From positions 3,325,991 to 3,389,990 of the forward strand of contig NZ_MSCH01000003.1 in the NCBI RefSeq assembly GCF_002954545.1: a DNA stretch of 64,000 nucleotides. The letters run 5' to 3'. The translations under genes were made by a program, and so were the position numbers. Source of the DNA: Psychrosphaera saromensis (GTDB lineage: Bacteria; Pseudomonadota; Gammaproteobacteria; Enterobacterales; Alteromonadaceae). Under the pieces are notes generated by a model, which was not told where the DNA came from, searched no databases, and saw only the letters and a program-made list of their open reading frames with translations. Below are positions 174 through 44,729 of the stretch, in pieces. The first letter of the stretch is position 1. Each line of letters starts with the position of its first letter.

Positions 174-1388
174 TTACTCTGCTAAACAGTTTCGCCCTGA
201 TTTTTTAGCACGATATAAAGCTTCGTCTGCTTGTTTCATTACTTCGTCAAACTCTTTTAACTCGCCTTCTCTTTCTGCCACACCAATGCTGACACTGACA
301 TGAACCGTTTTACTGCGGCTTTGAGCTTTAGAACGCTGTGCTTTACCGGTTTTACGATTGTCTGGACGGTCGTTATTATCACGTATTGTCATAGCGTAAC
401 TCGCAATCGCTTCACGAACTTGCTCTAGGTAAGGGATAGCGTAGTGAACAGACTTGTTCGGAAATACAATCGTAAACTCTTCACCGCCGTAACGATAAGC
501 TTTACCACCGCCTTTAACATCATCAATTTTACTTGCCACTAATCTCAACACTTGGTCGCCGACATCATGCCCGTACGTATCATTAAACTTTTTAAAATGA
601 TCTATATCTAGCATAGCAACAGTATATTTTTTACCTAACGAAAGAGACGATTGTAATAATGCTCGTCGTGCTGACAACCCGGTTAGTTCATCCGAGAATG
701 CCATTTGATAAGAGTCGGTTAATACACCTTGAATGAGTAACAAGCCAAATACGGAGAACGCCACTAAATGCGTAAGTACAGCAGCATCAATGAGTCGGAA
801 GTAAACAAGGAAAAAGGTAATAATCCAAATACTTAAAATGGATTTACTCGGACTAGAAATGTACTTTACCGCTAACATTAATAGAGCTAACACTGACAGG
901 ATCAATTCTATTTGTGTCATACCACCGAGCTTTAAGCCGGTAACTAATTCGGTATTTAATAATTCATGTAAGGTAATTGAATGATTGAAGCGGTAATTGG
1001 CCATAATGATGGCTAAGATAATCACGGCTCTGAAAAAGCCATGACGACCAAAAATGGTTTTATTTTGATCAAAACTAAAGCACACCAAAATCAACAACTG
1101 ACTTAAAAACCACAATGATGGGCTAAACTTCAAATACTTAAAATGTTCAATCTCAACAAATAGCGCCCAGCTTAATAACAAGAACAGTAATATATAAACA
1201 ACTCGACTTTGTTTGAATTTAAGCGCTACCACAATGGCACCGATGAATAAAAACATAGGCGCTTGTTTTAACAGCGCTTGCCAAGGTCTTAAATCCAACA
1301 TGCCATTTTGTATCACAAAAAACAGAGCGAATATTAAGATTACCGGTATATAAACCGCTTTAATAAAATTTGTGACTAAGTAATTCAA
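174..1388 (-). CDS. Membrane-bound GGDEF diguanylate cyclase
   Basis: A 404-residue protein predicted to make cyclic di-GMP from two GTP at the inner membrane. About the first 225 residues form a series of hydrophobic helices with no recognisable periplasmic sensor domain. The C-terminal half is a GGDEF domain with the signature GGEEF at residues 301-305 and the metal-binding D-x-D-H-F-K-x-x-N-D stretch upstream. The usual inhibitory RxxD motif five residues before the signature is absent (K-G-G-G there), so classical product inhibition is not expected. The start is TTG, overlapping the TGA stop of anmK by four bases, so the two genes are probably translationally coupled. An insertion rich in R, K and S (around residues 340-365) is unusual and may be a linker. 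No EAL domain is present. Confidence 0.88.
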   Translation of the reverse strand: MNYLVTNFIKAVYIPVILIFALFFVIQNGMLDLRPWQALLKQAPMFLFIGAIVVALKFKQSRVVYILLFLLLSWALFVEIEHFKYLKFSPSLWFLSQLLILVCFSFDQNKTIFGRHGFFRAVIILAIIMANYRFNHSITLHELLNTELVTGLKLGGMTQIELILSVLALLMLAVKYISSPSKSILSIWIITFFLVYFRLIDAAVLTHLVAFSVFGLLLIQGVLTDSYQMAFSDELTGLSARRALLQSSLSLGKKYTVAMLDIDHFKKFNDTYGHDVGDQVLRLVASKIDDVKGGGKAYRYGGEEFTIVFPNKSVHYAIPYLEQVREAIASYAMTIRDNNDRPDNRKTGKAQRSKAQSRSKTVHVSVSIGVAEREGELKEFDEVMKQADEALYRAKKSGRNCLAE

Positions 1389-38111: not shown

Positions 38112-39761
38112 TTGCAAAATTCTGAATATAAATTCAATGACAAACAACTCACTCTAATCATTACTCTAACTAAAGACTCAGAGGCATTGGAAGAGTCCGT
38201 TATTGTTAAACAAATACAACACTCTGAGTATTCATCTTTAAGCATATTGCATGAGCATATAAAAAGCTTTGTGCAAACAGCTAATACAAAGCTCGCTGGC
38301 ATAAAAAAAGATAAGCTAGCTGACACCAAAGTCAATGCGGTAGTGGCCAAGGCAATTGATGCAAAAATAAACATATTACTCGCTGAAGATAAAATGTCTG
38401 TTACCGCCCACGTGGTAACTGGAGTTGGTGGCAAATTGTTAGATTTAGAAACCATTAAACAGTCTTGCCTCGACGCCGGTGTCCGATACGGTTTGAAATC
38501 CTCTTTAATTGATGAATTACTCTTACAGTGTAAAAATTCAGTACCTGGTTCATCCATCGAATATACCATTGTTAAAGGCATGCCCGTCGTTCATGGCCAA
38601 GACGCTTATTTAAAACCTAGAGTTGAATTATTCTCAGAAGCTTGTCGTACTCCCAAAGTAGACTCTGAGGGGCGAGCTGACTTAAAAGACTTAGGTAATA
38701 TAGAAACCGTTGCGGTGAATCAAGCCGTGTTAGAAAAAGTACCACTAACAACGGGTAAAGAAGGCATTGATATTTATGGTGACAAAATTCCAGCCACATC
38801 TGGTAACGATGTCAAATTCTCTATTAATGACAGTGTAAGAATTAGTCCCAAGAACCCCAATATTTTACTTGCCACCAAAAGTGGCTTAGTGCGCTTTGAC
38901 GGTAAAGATTTGATTATTGATGATGTTTTCACCCTACCTGAACTTAACCCTAAAAAAGGTCATATTAAATTTAAAGGTAGTGTGATCATTCAAGGCGATG
39001 TGTCACCGGACATGCACCTGACTGCCACTGGCGATGTATTTATTGGTGGGTTTGTAGAGTCTGCAGTTATTAAGTGTGGTGGTGAATTAACTATAATATC
39101 TGGTGCATCAGGTCGACTTATTGAAGGTTCAAAGAATGAACATCACTATACTTGTGTTCTACAATCTGGCGGACAAATTAATTTAACGTTTGCCAATCAA
39201 TGTGAAATTACAGCAAAAACGATTGTTAGTGTAAAAAAACAATTAAGCCACTGTAACGTTGAAGCAAATAGTGTTGTGGTTGGTCAAGGTGATAGACCGA
39301 GTGGATTGATCACGGGCTGTAGATTCTTCCTGTGTAAAACATTAGAAGCGGGTGTTATAGGCACGGAATCTGATGTGCACACCGACATTAGTATGAATCG
39401 TACTTATGATATTTTTATTAATAAAGAAATCGAACTTGCCGATTGGATCCACGAGATGATTTCTCGCTTAGAAGGTGTAGAAAATGATTACAACAATACA
39501 CTCGATCCCGATAAAAAGCATAAACTAGAAAACGCATTAACCAAACTACAGTCAAAAGTAGAAAAGTATACTGGATACCGTAACGCTTTAATTGGCAAAC
39601 GCCGTGAATATATGGAGATGGTATCGGTAACTGCTAACTCTAAACTTTATCCAAAAGTCTCTGTTGTTATTGCCGAACACTCCCTTATTACTAAAGTAGA
39701 AAAAGGGCCATCCGTGATCAAAATAGAAGATCATGAATTTAAAGTGCAACCTAAAACCTAG
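38112..39761 (+). CDS. FapA (DUF342) family protein
   Basis: A 549-residue protein of the flagellar-assembly protein A family. The central half is rich in G, I and V and looks like a right-handed parallel beta-helix (GHIKFKGSVIIQGDVSPDMHLTATGDVFIGGFVESAVIKCGG), followed by a C-terminal helical segment with coiled-coil character (about residues 438-500). Start is TTG with AAGGTG four bases upstream. Vibrio FapA acts in polar flagellar assembly and chemosensory localisation. The gene is alone, about 6 kb from the flg block, so the flagellar role here is inferred from the family only. Confidence 0.8.
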   Translation: MQNSEYKFNDKQLTLIITLTKDSEALEESVIVKQIQHSEYSSLSILHEHIKSFVQTANTKLAGIKKDKLADTKVNAVVAKAIDAKINILLAEDKMSVTAHVVTGVGGKLLDLETIKQSCLDAGVRYGLKSSLIDELLLQCKNSVPGSSIEYTIVKGMPVVHGQDAYLKPRVELFSEACRTPKVDSEGRADLKDLGNIETVAVNQAVLEKVPLTTGKEGIDIYGDKIPATSGNDVKFSINDSVRISPKNPNILLATKSGLVRFDGKDLIIDDVFTLPELNPKKGHIKFKGSVIIQGDVSPDMHLTATGDVFIGGFVESAVIKCGGELTIISGASGRLIEGSKNEHHYTCVLQSGGQINLTFANQCEITAKTIVSVKKQLSHCNVEANSVVVGQGDRPSGLITGCRFFLCKTLEAGVIGTESDVHTDISMNRTYDIFINKEIELADWIHEMISRLEGVENDYNNTLDPDKKHKLENALTKLQSKVEKYTGYRNALIGKRREYMEMVSVTANSKLYPKVSVVIAEHSLITKVEKGPSVIKIEDHEFKVQPKT

Positions 39762-39866: not shown

Positions 39867-41996
39867 TTAAATACTAATGCTATTTGGTATTTGTGATGGT
39901 AACTGGAATGGATATTCCATCGGCCTACTTCTATTTCTACGAGTGATCGTCACTTCAATTTCAGCTAATTCTTCTTGAAACTTACTTAAGGCAAACGTTA
40001 ATCGTCGGTCTTTAAAATAAGGAATTTTAGGATCTTCAGAATAATGACCGAACGTATCGTATTGAACCCCACTTAAAAGATACTCAAACAAGAAGGTATA
40101 CATAGAGACGTCTAACGGCGGGTACCAAGCTAAACAATCCTGCTCAGACGCTAAAGCCGTATTCTTACCTGGAGCCGGTTGATAAATAGTTCCGGCAACA
40201 CTTGGCATATAAGACATCAGTGGATATTGGGCATAGTTAACAGATGCATGTTGTGGTCCAGCAATATAAATGATTTGCGCGATGATCTTAACCAAATAAT
40301 CTTTGTCGTCAATTACATAAGGTTGCTTTGGATTGCCGGTTGCTTTTAATCCTCGCATCCCTGTTACCTTGGCATAATTTGGCGAAACTAATTCATTAAC
40401 CCATGCCTGTAATTCGTTATCTTGTAACATATCGTCTTGGCTTGGATAATAAAGAGAAATATAACTTTCAACCCATTTATTAACGGTTTGCCAAAGAAGC
40501 TTTGTATCGTCTCTAAAAGGAAAGTTTGGAATATCCGCCACTCCACGGATATCAAATATACAGTCTGGATTATTGTCATCAAACTGCCAAGCCAAATGTG
40601 CTTGGCGAACCAACTCCCAAGTATCTTCTATTTTAGGACCAACATTGGTTGCCACCACCCCACCAGGAATGATCAAACTGTGCAAAGCACTGTTGTTGAT
40701 ATTAATGGTAAATCTAAAATGAGGCTTAAGTAAGATCATAAGTGGATGATTGTCAGAAAGCTTTCGATTAGTCGCAACAACCATAGGGTCTAACGTTAAA
40801 TGGCAATCGCCTAAATGAGCTACAGATTCATGCTGAATTGCACAAGATACATTGACAAAATACTTAGCGATACGCCATTTATAGTGATGTTGATCATCGG
40901 CATTAGCTGAGTCGGTTGGTGTAAATATTGGAGCGGTAACTTCATCAAATTTTTGTTGTAACTGAATAGCAACCGGTTGCATTACACCGTGGTCTTCTGC
41001 CGGAGGATAACCCGCAGGCGAATCATTATTTAAGTAAAACAATGCAATTGGTGCTGACAAATAACGTTCTTCACCATGTACTGGTGTGGTTTCGGTACCA
41101 TCTAACATAGCGTAATCCACAACAAATAACCGCTTTTGCTCAGCAGCTTGCTGCAAGGTTACATTAGCGATTCCAGTTTCTTGTTGTAAAATGGCGTCAG
41201 TTACTGGCATTTTTGCCAATAAACTAGATAATTCTACAATTTCAGTACCTGCAGGTTTGGTTAACTGAACACCACGTAAGTTGGTTGTATTAAATCCTGC
41301 GATTTGTAAGTAACCAAAAAACCAATCTTGCATACAAGGTTTTTCATCTCCGACCATCCAGTCTTGCTGAGGTATCGTTAGCATCTCAGGCAACGAAAGT
41401 GTTTCAAATAAGTCTTCATAATCTTGTATAGATTGCGCTTGCAAATAATCTCGGCCGCTTTCAGTACTCAACACGTTAAATAGTGTGTTTTTTAATATTT
41501 CAGTCGGGCCTTTTTCTATTGCATCTTCGGCTAAGTCTTTTAATCCATTTAATGCTTTCTCTAAATCTTGAGGTAAATGACTAAGGCTTTTAAATGCCTC
41601 AGGTAAGTCGCCAAGAACACTAAATATAGATTTAATTGCTTTTATATCTTCACCTATATGGCGAATATCAATACCGTCACTAAGCTCATCAATAGCTTGT
41701 TTCAATTCATCCATGCGCTTAGTGGATATGTCGTCTGTTATTTGTTTTCTAAATAAACGCTCAGTCACCACAATTAAATTTTCTACCATGTTTTTAAACA
41801 CTGGGAGTAATTTAATTGCATAAGCTGTACTAAATTTTTCCTGCTCTGGTAAGTCGGCAGAAATTGGAACACCTTCCATATACGAGGTCATATAGTTATA
41901 AGTTGTATGCGCCATTGAGAGTTGGAACTCTCTTTTTGTTCTTTGCTCTGCATCATCATGCTGCGGTAAGCTTGGTATTGTAGACTTGGTGCTCAT
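39867..41996 (-). CDS. Bacterial lipoxygenase (non-haem iron)
   Basis: A 709-residue protein with the catalytic core of plant/animal-type lipoxygenases, which add O2 to polyunsaturated fatty acids. The signature H-x4-H-x4-H-x17-H-x8-H is exact, and all expected iron ligands are present: H389 and H394 in HESVAH, H583 and N587 in QHASVN, and the C-terminal isoleucine (the protein ends PNSISI). No PLAT domain is evident in the first 200 residues, which are helical and of unknown function. No signal peptide is visible, unlike Pseudomonas LoxA. Start: the ATG at 41996 has AAGGA at good spacing, whereas the ATG at 42002 is too close. Alone on its strand; substrate unknown. Confidence 0.93.
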   Translation of the reverse strand: MSTKSTIPSLPQHDDAEQRTKREFQLSMAHTTYNYMTSYMEGVPISADLPEQEKFSTAYAIKLLPVFKNMVENLIVVTERLFRKQITDDISTKRMDELKQAIDELSDGIDIRHIGEDIKAIKSIFSVLGDLPEAFKSLSHLPQDLEKALNGLKDLAEDAIEKGPTEILKNTLFNVLSTESGRDYLQAQSIQDYEDLFETLSLPEMLTIPQQDWMVGDEKPCMQDWFFGYLQIAGFNTTNLRGVQLTKPAGTEIVELSSLLAKMPVTDAILQQETGIANVTLQQAAEQKRLFVVDYAMLDGTETTPVHGEERYLSAPIALFYLNNDSPAGYPPAEDHGVMQPVAIQLQQKFDEVTAPIFTPTDSANADDQHHYKWRIAKYFVNVSCAIQHESVAHLGDCHLTLDPMVVATNRKLSDNHPLMILLKPHFRFTININNSALHSLIIPGGVVATNVGPKIEDTWELVRQAHLAWQFDDNNPDCIFDIRGVADIPNFPFRDDTKLLWQTVNKWVESYISLYYPSQDDMLQDNELQAWVNELVSPNYAKVTGMRGLKATGNPKQPYVIDDKDYLVKIIAQIIYIAGPQHASVNYAQYPLMSYMPSVAGTIYQPAPGKNTALASEQDCLAWYPPLDVSMYTFLFEYLLSGVQYDTFGHYSEDPKIPYFKDRRLTFALSKFQEELAEIEVTITRRNRSRPMEYPFQLPSQIPNSISI

Positions 41997-42296
41997 TAAC
42001 ATTTCCTTATAGGTGAGTGCTCAAAAGTGAGAATTTAAAACTGTGCATACTATTTAGTTTTTGCTAAATGCTAATTACCAACATTAAATCAATAAGATGA
42101 ATAAATAATGTACTGAACGTGTGCATATTACAATCACTATGTTTGGTTTTAATGACATCCTCAATATTCATATCGTGTACCAATAAAGCAGATTGGGATA
42201 TGATGAAATTTCAGCAAGTAAAATTAAACTAAGTAAAGCCCAATAATAATTACAATCCGTTACTTAAAACCGTATTTAAACCTAAAAGGGAACACC
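41997..42296. other. Divergent intergenic region lipoxygenase / moeA
   Basis: About 300 bp of AT-rich DNA. It must hold promoters for both genes, but I find no strong consensus boxes, hairpin, repeat or ORF. Confidence 0.4.
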
Positions 42297-43589
42297 ATGA
42301 ACGACTGTTACAATGTACCTAACTTGATGCCTTTTGAATTAGCAAAAAGTACATTATTAACTAACGTAAATATGATCACAGAAACTGAGTTTATTGCTAT
42401 TCAAGATGCCGACCAGCGTATCCTTGCTAAGCCAGTTACTTCCCCAATCCAAGTCCCAGCCCACAATAATTCAGCAATGGACGGTTATGCGATAAGAGAT
42501 GACTCTTTGCAGGCAGGTTTAACAGGAAACTCAACACCATTAAAGCAATTCAAACTTGTCGGTATATCTATGGCTGGCAGCCCTTACAAAAGTAAATTAG
42601 GTGGTACTGAATTAAATAACGGTGAATGCATTCGAATTATGACAGGCGCTGTCGTGCCAAATTCTGCTAATGCGGTCATTATGCAGGAGAATGTTAGCAG
42701 TCAAATCAATCCCGAAACTAAAGATAAACAAATCACCCTACTGCACCCAACAAAATACCAAGCTCATATACGTTTTGCTGGGGAAGATATTCAACAAGGA
42801 CATGTATTATTTGATACGGGATATTGTCTTAAAGCGGTTGATATCGGTTTATTATCTTCATTAGGATTAAGTCAAATTGAAGTATTTAGGAAATTAAAAG
42901 TTGCGGTGTTATCTACAGGCGACGAACTTAAAATGCCAGGCCAACCTTTACAAGAAGGTGATATTTACGAAAGCAACAGTCAAATATTAATTGCCATGTT
43001 ACAACGCCTAAATATGTCAGTTATTCCTCTTGGTATTATAAAAGACGACAAAACAGCCATAACCAATGCGTTTATCAAAGCAGACCAAGAAGCTGATGTC
43101 GTTATTAGTTCAGGTGGAGTCTCGGTTGGTGATGCAGATTATACCAAAGAAGTGTTAAGTGAAATTGGTACTGTCGACTTTTGGAAAGTTGCGATTAAAC
43201 CTGGAAAACCATTTGCCTTTGGCAAACTAGATAACAGTGTATTTTTTGGCTTACCAGGTAACCCAGTATCAGCGGCGGTTACCTTCCACCAGCTTGCGGT
43301 TCCTGCATTAAGATATATGGCGGGGGCTAATGCGACAGCAAACACTCAGTTAAATGCCACCACAACCAGTAAAATCAATAAAAAAGCTGGAAGGATGGAT
43401 TTCCAACGAGGCGTAATGTCGGTTAGCGAACAAGGTAATTTACAGGTAACGCCTTTACCCGCACAAGGTTCAGGTATTTTATCGTCTATAAGTCGGGCTA
43501 ATTGTTACATTATACTTGCGCAAGAAAACCAAGGACATCAAGCTGGAGATACAGTCACTATAGAGTTGTTTGATTCTATTATTGGCTAA
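42297..43589 (+). CDS. moeA: Molybdopterin molybdenumtransferase MoeA
   Basis: MoeA inserts molybdate into adenylylated molybdopterin in the last step of cofactor synthesis. At 430 residues it is slightly longer than E. coli (411). PAHNNSAMDGYAI (near residue 60) and the nucleotide-binding VVISSGGVSVGDADYTKE with GLPGNPVSAAVTF are clear family motifs. moeB or mog, often nearby, is not in this window. Good AAGGGA ribosome site. Confidence 0.96.
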   Translation: MNDCYNVPNLMPFELAKSTLLTNVNMITETEFIAIQDADQRILAKPVTSPIQVPAHNNSAMDGYAIRDDSLQAGLTGNSTPLKQFKLVGISMAGSPYKSKLGGTELNNGECIRIMTGAVVPNSANAVIMQENVSSQINPETKDKQITLLHPTKYQAHIRFAGEDIQQGHVLFDTGYCLKAVDIGLLSSLGLSQIEVFRKLKVAVLSTGDELKMPGQPLQEGDIYESNSQILIAMLQRLNMSVIPLGIIKDDKTAITNAFIKADQEADVVISSGGVSVGDADYTKEVLSEIGTVDFWKVAIKPGKPFAFGKLDNSVFFGLPGNPVSAAVTFHQLAVPALRYMAGANATANTQLNATTTSKINKKAGRMDFQRGVMSVSEQGNLQVTPLPAQGSGILSSISRANCYIILAQENQGHQAGDTVTIELFDSIIG

Positions 43590-43841: not shown

Positions 43842-44729
43842 ATGAAATTAGTACAGGACATACAGCTTAATCACACAACCCCCATCCATGGACTAGGTTT
43901 AGTTGCTGAAGGTGGTGGACAACGTGGCGCTTTTACAGCCGGTATTTTAGATTACTTACAGATAGCTAACTTTAACCCATTTGAAATTCTTATTGGAACC
44001 TCAGCGGGGGCACAAAATGTAGCAAGCTTTGTGAGTAAACAAAAAGGTTATGCTTACAGTTTAATCCATGATTTAACCCGTAATGATAACTTCTTTAACC
44101 CATGGCGTTTTTTCAGTAATAACAACATCATGGATCTCGACTGGTATTTTAAGCAAATTGAAAAGAAAAGTTATCAATTTGATTCAGCCCAAGCGAATAA
44201 CAATGCACAAAACCGCAAAGTGCGTTTTACCGCAGCTCGCTCATCCAGACTAACCACTAAGTTAATAAACCCGGTAGAAGATGGCTGGTTAAATTCATTA
44301 AAATATTCAAGCTCAATACCTTACTTGTATGACGGAGGCAGTTTTTTAGATGGTGGCGTAAGCGCTCCAATCCCAGTCAATGAAGCCTACAAACTTGGTG
44401 CTAAAAAAATACTGGTGATCAGAACTACAGATGGCTCTGAAGATGTTATTCCAAAACAGATCAAGCAATTTAAGCCTTTACTGTGTACCAATAATCGGTG
44501 CCCAAGGTTTATCAAAATATTATATAAGTACGAAAGCGCTTATCAACGAGCTGAGCGGTTTATTAAAACACCTCCTAGCGACGTTGAAATAATAACGCTA
44601 AGACCGCTTAGACCATTGGCAACCAAAGTATTAGGTAGCACAGAACAAGACATAGTTAATGATTACAAATATGGATTGGAAATAGGTAAAGCGTTTATCG
44701 AAAACCAAGCCAATAGCTTGGTGCTATAA
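43842..44729 (+). CDS. Patatin-like phospholipase
   Basis: A 295-residue serine acyl-hydrolase of the patatin/RssA type. The oxyanion-hole glycine motif is GGGQRGAFTAG (about residues 27-37), the nucleophile S54 lies in GTSAG, and the catalytic aspartate D170 lies in DGGVSAP. No signal peptide or autotransporter domain is present, so it is probably cytoplasmic or peripheral at the membrane. Physiological substrate unknown; related proteins release fatty acids from phospholipids. It lies near a lipoxygenase gene (39867-41996), separated by moeA, a spatial link of unknown meaning. Confidence 0.9.
   Translation: MKLVQDIQLNHTTPIHGLGLVAEGGGQRGAFTAGILDYLQIANFNPFEILIGTSAGAQNVASFVSKQKGYAYSLIHDLTRNDNFFNPWRFFSNNNIMDLDWYFKQIEKKSYQFDSAQANNNAQNRKVRFTAARSSRLTTKLINPVEDGWLNSLKYSSSIPYLYDGGSFLDGGVSAPIPVNEAYKLGAKKILVIRTTDGSEDVIPKQIKQFKPLLCTNNRCPRFIKILYKYESAYQRAERFIKTPPSDVEIITLRPLRPLATKVLGSTEQDIVNDYKYGLEIGKAFIENQANSLVL

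Follow-up and report, generated by a model that had tools for sequence, protein, structure and literature searches.

What does a lipoxygenase do in Psychrosphaera saromensis, and does it act alone or with a signalling partner? The question is raised by a single minus-strand gene in the window, by which we mean the whole 64,000-nucleotide stretch that was analysed (contig NZ_MSCH01000003.1, positions 3,325,991 to 3,389,990). Our main reading, to which we give a probability of about one half, is that the gene encodes a soluble, probably cytosolic lipoxygenase, and that elsewhere such enzymes would form part of a lipoxygenase-to-c-di-GMP or phosphorelay module whose partner the window lineage lacks. 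The features of the locus are listed here; G and L numbers below denote genomes and loci.

39867..41996, minus strand: lipoxygenase gene, 709 aa from the preferred ATG (711 aa if the start is at 42002)
42004..42008, minus strand: AAGGA, probable ribosome-binding site, 7 nt before the ATG at 41996
41757..41987, minus strand: N-terminal segment, residues ~6-82, common with the cyanobacterial lipoxygenase 5MED (clade profile, E=6.7e-6)
41433..41756, minus strand: clade-specific insert, residues ~83-190, probably helical (no PDB lipoxygenase match, no Pfam family)
39924..41420, minus strand: lipoxygenase catalytic domain, residues 195-693 (best PF00305 stretch)
40719..40832, minus strand: His motif from H391 to H428 with the presumed ligands H396 and H401 (from alignment)
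40236..40250, minus strand: H585 and N589 of QHASVN, presumed ligands (from alignment)
39870..39872, minus strand: C-terminal I711, presumed carboxylate ligand (from alignment)
38112..39761, plus strand: FapA-type gene (PF03961, PF20250), convergent flank, not thought a partner
42297..43589, plus strand: moeA (NF007960, E=2.2e-158), divergent flank, not thought a partner

The open reading frame spans 39867-42002 and has 711 codons counted from the first ATG. An AAGGA lies 1 nt from this ATG and 7 nt from the one at the third codon (41996), and several relatives start with 'MS'; for these two reasons the start at 41996 is preferred, and a product of 709 residues is likelier than one of 711. Residue numbers are given here for the 711-residue form and equal those of the initial annotation plus 2. 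PF00305 matches positions 163-655 of its 673 with E=4e-57 and 194.6 bits (cut-off 23.6) and is the one Pfam family over cut-off, an HSBP1 match (E=0.033) falling under it; the top solved relative is the Cyanothece lipoxygenase 5MED (E=4.6e-65). The protein has the exact motif H391-x4-H396-x4-H401-x17-H419-x8-H428, its QHASVN contributes H585 and N589, and PNSIS precedes the terminal I711. None of these eight residues varies among the 16 aligned members of its clade (see below). The initial annotation, which had called a lipoxygenase with a full ligand set, is borne out by the profile match and by the presence of every residue it named. Its equation of motif residues with ligands needs one correction: the motif is exact, and by soybean LOX-1 chemistry we take five of the eight residues (H396, H401, H585, N589 and I711) to bind iron, the conserved H391, H419 and H428 presumably not being ligands. 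A further residue, A439, aligns with the Ala in the INELAR stretch of 5MED and is invariant across the clade; S-type hydroperoxides are predicted on the assumption that the alanine rule applies to it. As a predicted enzyme, then, the product is a genuine iron lipoxygenase of known family. AlphaFold2, run on three sequences only (the window protein and two relatives), gave a mean pLDDT of 35.8 and a pTM of 0.24, a model too poor to use for either helix assignment or ligand geometry.

Neither a PLAT domain (16 clade members scanned) nor an SRPBCC or other known N-terminal domain (window protein and the clade members scanned) was matched in Pfam, and no signal peptide is visible by eye in the translation; on both PLAT and the signal peptide the initial annotation had said the same. 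The catalytic domain matches that of Pseudomonas aeruginosa LoxA (4G32, 5IR5; E=5.7e-60), which also lacks PLAT but is described as periplasmic with a signal peptide (PMC11011848), and the single LoxA-type locus viewed had no signalling neighbour. Shewanella violacea SvLOX is likewise a marine bacterial lipoxygenase without PLAT, but SvLOX and the red-algal PhLOX are reported to carry an N-terminal SRPBCC domain (PMC11507377), a comparison made by description and not by sequence. Among solved structures the closest likeness is to the Cyanothece enzyme (5MED, 5MEE, 5MEF, 5MEG), which shares the N-terminal segment, the catalytic domain, the ligands and the PNS-x-SI end; at 569 aa, it has a much shorter stretch between N-terminal segment and catalytic domain. 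About 200 N-terminal residues had been said to match nothing. This proved too wide, since positions 6-82 of a profile built from 13 clade N-termini match 5MED residues 3-78 (E=6.7e-6). The match to LoxA was marginal (E about 0.6), and the remaining matches were to helical and designed proteins. The claim does hold for the roughly 100 residues that follow: because the PDB lipoxygenase match stops at ~82, residues ~83-190 are taken to be a clade-specific insert, probably helical, which is conserved in the 13 aligned N-termini and closes with a conserved G-x-T-x-x-L-K. The window enzyme belongs to a distinct clade and is probably a soluble non-haem iron lipoxygenase of the cytosol.

That clade was defined in a tree of 27 rows from 32 loci (L002, L003, L019, L020 and L029, duplicates or fragments, were omitted, and the window protein replaced L001), in which 16 rows including the window protein group with support of 91/98. 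Among the 11 rows outside it are four (L016 from G003, L025 from G271, L028 from G295 and L030 from G388) that miss at least one canonical ligand residue in the alignment; to judge from these substitutions they are perhaps non-catalytic. L016 lies 25 bp from a chemotaxis-receptor frame (L050).

What lies beside the clade lipoxygenases? Neighbours were clustered from open frames of at least 80 aa around 24 loci including the window, with 3 to 20 frames each. A signalling gene is found within three genes of the lipoxygenase at 12 of the 16 clade loci (GGDEF at ten, histidine kinase at two); of the other four, two (G040, G073) are cut by contig ends and two, the window and its nearest relative G036, have no signalling gene. 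Nine clade lipoxygenases adjoin a protein of 1.6-2.0 kilo-residues. In the six of these that were scanned, Pfam finds Pkinase, AAA_16 and GAF, followed by GGDEF (L037, L039, L040, L047) or HisKA/HATPase (L036, which also has a receiver and Hpt, and L034, which is cut by a contig end); local profiles find AAA_16 and GGDEF in the partners at L038, L041 and L042. Gene order varies. The large partner and the lipoxygenase converge in five genomes (G191, G078, G038, G221, G524) and diverge in one (G190). In three more they share a strand: in G029 an epimerase-type gene and a small frame intervene, and in G075 and G033 the partner is upstream and a TonB receptor separates the two. G073 has, on another contig, a partner that shares 93% identity with the G029 one, which fits the G029 gene order but does not show it. 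In G589, G346 and G251 a different protein, 7TMR-DISM-GGDEF, is encoded by the next gene, which lies 16-48 bp downstream of the lipoxygenase in the same orientation. GGEEF is intact in all ten linked clade cyclases, each with an R-x-x-D stretch before it. Active kinases have HRD; at this place the kinase-like domain reads HRN in the partners from G190 and G029, and in those from G075 and G033 no HRD-type motif turned up in a simple motif search. On these grounds the domain may be inactive in all four.

The order of kinase-like domain, ATPase, TPR and GAF in the large partner recalls fungal Chk1/Mak2-type hybrid kinases, and L036, L037 and L039 have a TPR_CHK1 Pfam match; the fungal proteins, however, end in a histidine kinase, whereas the large partners mostly end in GGDEF. 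Mak2/Mak3 of S. pombe are described as relaying peroxide signals (PMC3644883). We regard the likeness as an analogy.

The window itself has no such arrangement. No GGDEF or histidine-kinase gene lies in the 20 kb around the lipoxygenase, and the kinase-ATPase-GAF core of the partner (1041 aa, searched at E 1e-20) has no match in the own genome (G000) or in G036. Among the places listed, the protein P0002 has matches in the own genome only in the histidine-kinase part. The genome has 32 GGDEF domains; one frame with GGEEF, probably a diguanylate cyclase, lies in the window at 174-1388 (minus strand), at a distance of about 38 kb. A patatin-like phospholipase with DUF6363 (43842-44729, plus strand) is encoded two genes away from the lipoxygenase. 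We considered it as a partner that frees fatty acids and rejected it, its family occurring only in the window and at L033 (G036) among the 24 loci. Nor did a congener without a lipoxygenase (G154) yield a clean empty site: there the FapA-type gene and moeA flank a 2258-aa frame (L111:7734-14510), by eye a cadherin/VCBS-like surface protein, and the interval is a variable spot.

Is the linkage elsewhere more than chance? In the 15 genomes counted, each has between 11 and 86 GGDEF domains, about 0.4-1.2% of genes if one gene per kb is assumed, which makes a chance GGDEF neighbour unlikely; loci within one genus or family are, however, not independent. The partner core occurs in 57 of 246 family genomes, once in 54 of those. 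Nine of the 14 lipoxygenase carriers have it, against 48 of the 232 genomes that lack a lipoxygenase (Fisher p=8e-4, a guide only, the genomes being related). In genus g58 (19 of 20 genomes, G952 being omitted as 55% complete), a 7TMR-DISM-GGDEF gene was found at E 1e-50 in three genomes, and these are the three with a full-length lipoxygenase (Fisher p=0.001); none was found at this threshold in G295, a g58 genome with only a ligand-deviant lipoxygenase.

A tree was built from 32 partner cores selected among the places matched; it groups the lipoxygenase-linked cores of G190, G029, G524, G191, G078, G038 and G221 with that of G073 and with those of G206 and G135, which have no lipoxygenase (96/94). 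The cores of G075 and G033 fall on another branch, beside that of G106, again without a lipoxygenase. Since the linked cores split in this way, the lipoxygenase is tied to two branches of the partner family, and besides both of these it is linked separately to 7TMR-DISM proteins. The partner, for its part, can on present gene content work alone: G135, G206, G106 and 48 of the 232 family genomes without a lipoxygenase carry it or a relative. In G135 (L078) and G206 (L079) the locus matches that of G221 (L042) in partner and neighbours but has no lipoxygenase, which offers a natural contrast for studies of phenotype. In G106 (L084) the partner and the TonB receptor are present and the lipoxygenase absent. 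A TonB-dependent receptor is paired with the kinase-ATPase-GAF-GGDEF gene at L037 (G075), L038 (G033) and L084 alike, and is a possible import partner.

A test set was searched after the hypothesis had been formed, the GGDEF neighbour of G932 (L054) being already known at that time. In the order of G932, 23 of 396 genomes have a lipoxygenase, all in family f63. We take f63 to lie outside the window's class because it is labelled as being of the same phylum only, and its lipoxygenases fall on a different branch from the window clade in the lipoxygenase tree. Of 21 new f63 loci 20 were taken (G1225, in two pieces, was omitted), and at 18 of the 20 a divergent GGDEF frame lies on the opposite strand within 300 bp. 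The exceptions are L153 and L155, where no GGDEF neighbour was found; with G932 and G802 included the count is 20 of 22. An open-frame overlap filter reduced the 18 of 20 to 8 of 20, antisense frames having hidden five lipoxygenases and many cyclases. At L138 (G1066) one in-frame TAG, from pseudogene formation or a sequencing error, interrupts the lipoxygenase frame, and the adjoining GGDEF frame is open. Of 198 cross-genus pairs among the 22 loci, 149 have no flanking protein in common within 6 kb, which indicates that the pair outlasts its surroundings; the linkage in f63 possibly reflects one ancestral event. The nine f63 cyclases scanned, out of 20, match GGDEF-type families only. The roughly 200 hydrophobic residues before their GGDEF match no Pfam family and can be aligned across the 20 (L054, L055, L137-L152, L154, L156), and possibly represent a new membrane sensor domain.

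The linkage does not extend to all bacterial lipoxygenases. Six further gammaproteobacterial loci were viewed: at three of them a signalling gene or pair (MCP, two-component pair, hybrid kinase) lies no more than 3 kb away, and at the other three there is no such neighbour. Seven plasmid records match an f63 lipoxygenase, and none of the five plasmid loci inspected has an annotated signalling-enzyme neighbour in the PLSDB gene tables, which are incomplete; at a Rhodococcus plasmid locus a LysR regulator lies two genes from the lipoxygenase. A universal link between lipoxygenase and signalling was rejected on the strength of these five loci.

Where a partner is linked, how might the two proteins divide the work? 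H-NOX is a haem gas sensor whose fold is unrelated to that of lipoxygenases. Its gene, like those of the window enzyme's relatives and unlike the window copy, usually adjoins a histidine-kinase or a cyclase/phosphodiesterase gene, and H-NOX is reported to bind these partners (PMC8738867). By analogy this habit supports the logic of a cue passed to a partner, and it also supports a reading in which the lipoxygenase itself is the sensor. PUFA or hydroperoxide would then bind at its iron site, and the lipoxygenase would bind and switch the cyclase or kinase linked to it, perhaps by way of the conserved N-terminal insert, for which no fold is known, much as H-NOX acts on its partners in response to nitric oxide. 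We think that improbable: a pure sensor could dispense with the full catalytic ligand set present in 16 of 16 members, the window enzyme is conserved with no linked partner, and the f63 lipoxygenases are linked too, though they belong to another branch.

The substrate is most readily sought outside the cell. The initial annotation had supposed that the organism might make its own polyunsaturated fatty acids, and this was not upheld: no match to the PfaA model (TIGR02813) exceeds its cut-off in the own genome, nor in G036 and G190, the two other lipoxygenase carriers of the genus, and the best matches in the own genome are short stretches that we read as typical of ordinary fatty-acid-synthesis proteins. 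The associated proposal, that the enzyme oxidises PUFA in the organism's own membrane supplied by its own PUFA synthase, accordingly seems very unlikely here, even though PfaA is over cut-off in five of the family's 14 lipoxygenase carriers (G221, G040, G191, G038, G078), for which self-made PUFA may be the source. As no PfaA-type PUFA synthase scores over cut-off there, the organism probably acquires its substrate; given also that Psychrosphaera algicola is described from a brown-algal phycosphere (PMC11324256), algal PUFA is the likely source.

Lipoxygenases had been called rare in bacteria, and so they are in a phylum-wide draw, where 4 of 398 genomes have one; the family draw gave 14 of 246 and the order draw 12 of 394 (the draws overlap, and each counts the own genome). 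Among the genomes listed, three of eight in the same genus carry the gene. PF00305 finds no second lipoxygenase in the 3.64-Mb own genome. The nearest database record is an uncultured Psychrosphaera sp. (isolate 2-982; 97% identical), followed by the MAG Gammaproteobacteria bacterium HF-Dia12 (79%). A scan of viral contigs gave no further relative, and phage records had no match at E 1e-5; G+C and third-position G+C of the gene match those of its flanks. Compared with its orthologue in G036 the gene has dN 0.015 and dS 0.516, a dN/dS of about 0.03 against 0.07 for moeA and 0.10 for the FapA-type gene (dS against G190 is saturated). The window lipoxygenase is under strong purifying selection.

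That this lineage keeps the gene under such selection with no linked partner is what would be expected of an outward-acting or catabolic enzyme, one that turns algal PUFA into oxylipins or short aldehydes directed at algae or competitors, or that detoxifies PUFA, the signalling genes beside its relatives merely co-responding. The algal habitat described for P. algicola (PMC11324256) would suit such a role, as would the hydroperoxides and 2,4-decadienal reported as in vitro products of the Shewanella violacea enzyme (PMC11507377). It leaves unexplained, however, the repeated linkage to GGDEF proteins of unlike architectures, and GGDEF enzymes, not being transcription factors, do not by themselves control a neighbouring gene. 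We consider this role unlikely, while giving it more weight than any other alternative.

Under the module reading, PUFA, most likely from algae or other organisms, would be converted by the lipoxygenase to hydroperoxides. By this activity the enzyme would make or remove an oxidised-lipid cue that the linked protein reads, and the cue would set c-di-GMP, the usual output, or a phosphorelay, for example to move cells between an attached and a free-living state near algae. In the window lineage, where the gene sits amid housekeeping genes, the enzyme would act alone or through an unlinked receptor. A stronger version is that lipoxygenase-cyclase pairs are a dedicated oxylipin-to-c-di-GMP system, assembled several times with unlike proteins (kinase-ATPase-GAF-GGDEF, 7TMR-DISM-GGDEF and membrane-GGDEF), kept in distant families, and including the window enzyme by way of an unlinked receptor; this we hold tentatively, a little below even odds.

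A search by title and start of abstract, with few subscription papers and no bioRxiv preprints covered, found no published lipoxygenase-diguanylate cyclase gene pair. Other oxylipins, the products of a diol synthase rather than a lipoxygenase, are reported to promote biofilm in Pseudomonas aeruginosa (PMC5155153). A review describes bacterial lipoxygenases as linked bioinformatically to multicellularity and presents an oxylipin role in multicellular structures as a hypothesis lacking definitive confirmation (PMC11011848). The present locus is of interest because its relatives are repeatedly linked to c-di-GMP and phosphorelay proteins, the window gene itself having no such link. The use that bacteria make of lipoxygenases is unsettled, and a tie to c-di-GMP synthases at the level of genes would give the multicellularity hypothesis a concrete circuit. 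If this is true, oxidised lipids would join nitric oxide and oxygen as inputs to c-di-GMP.
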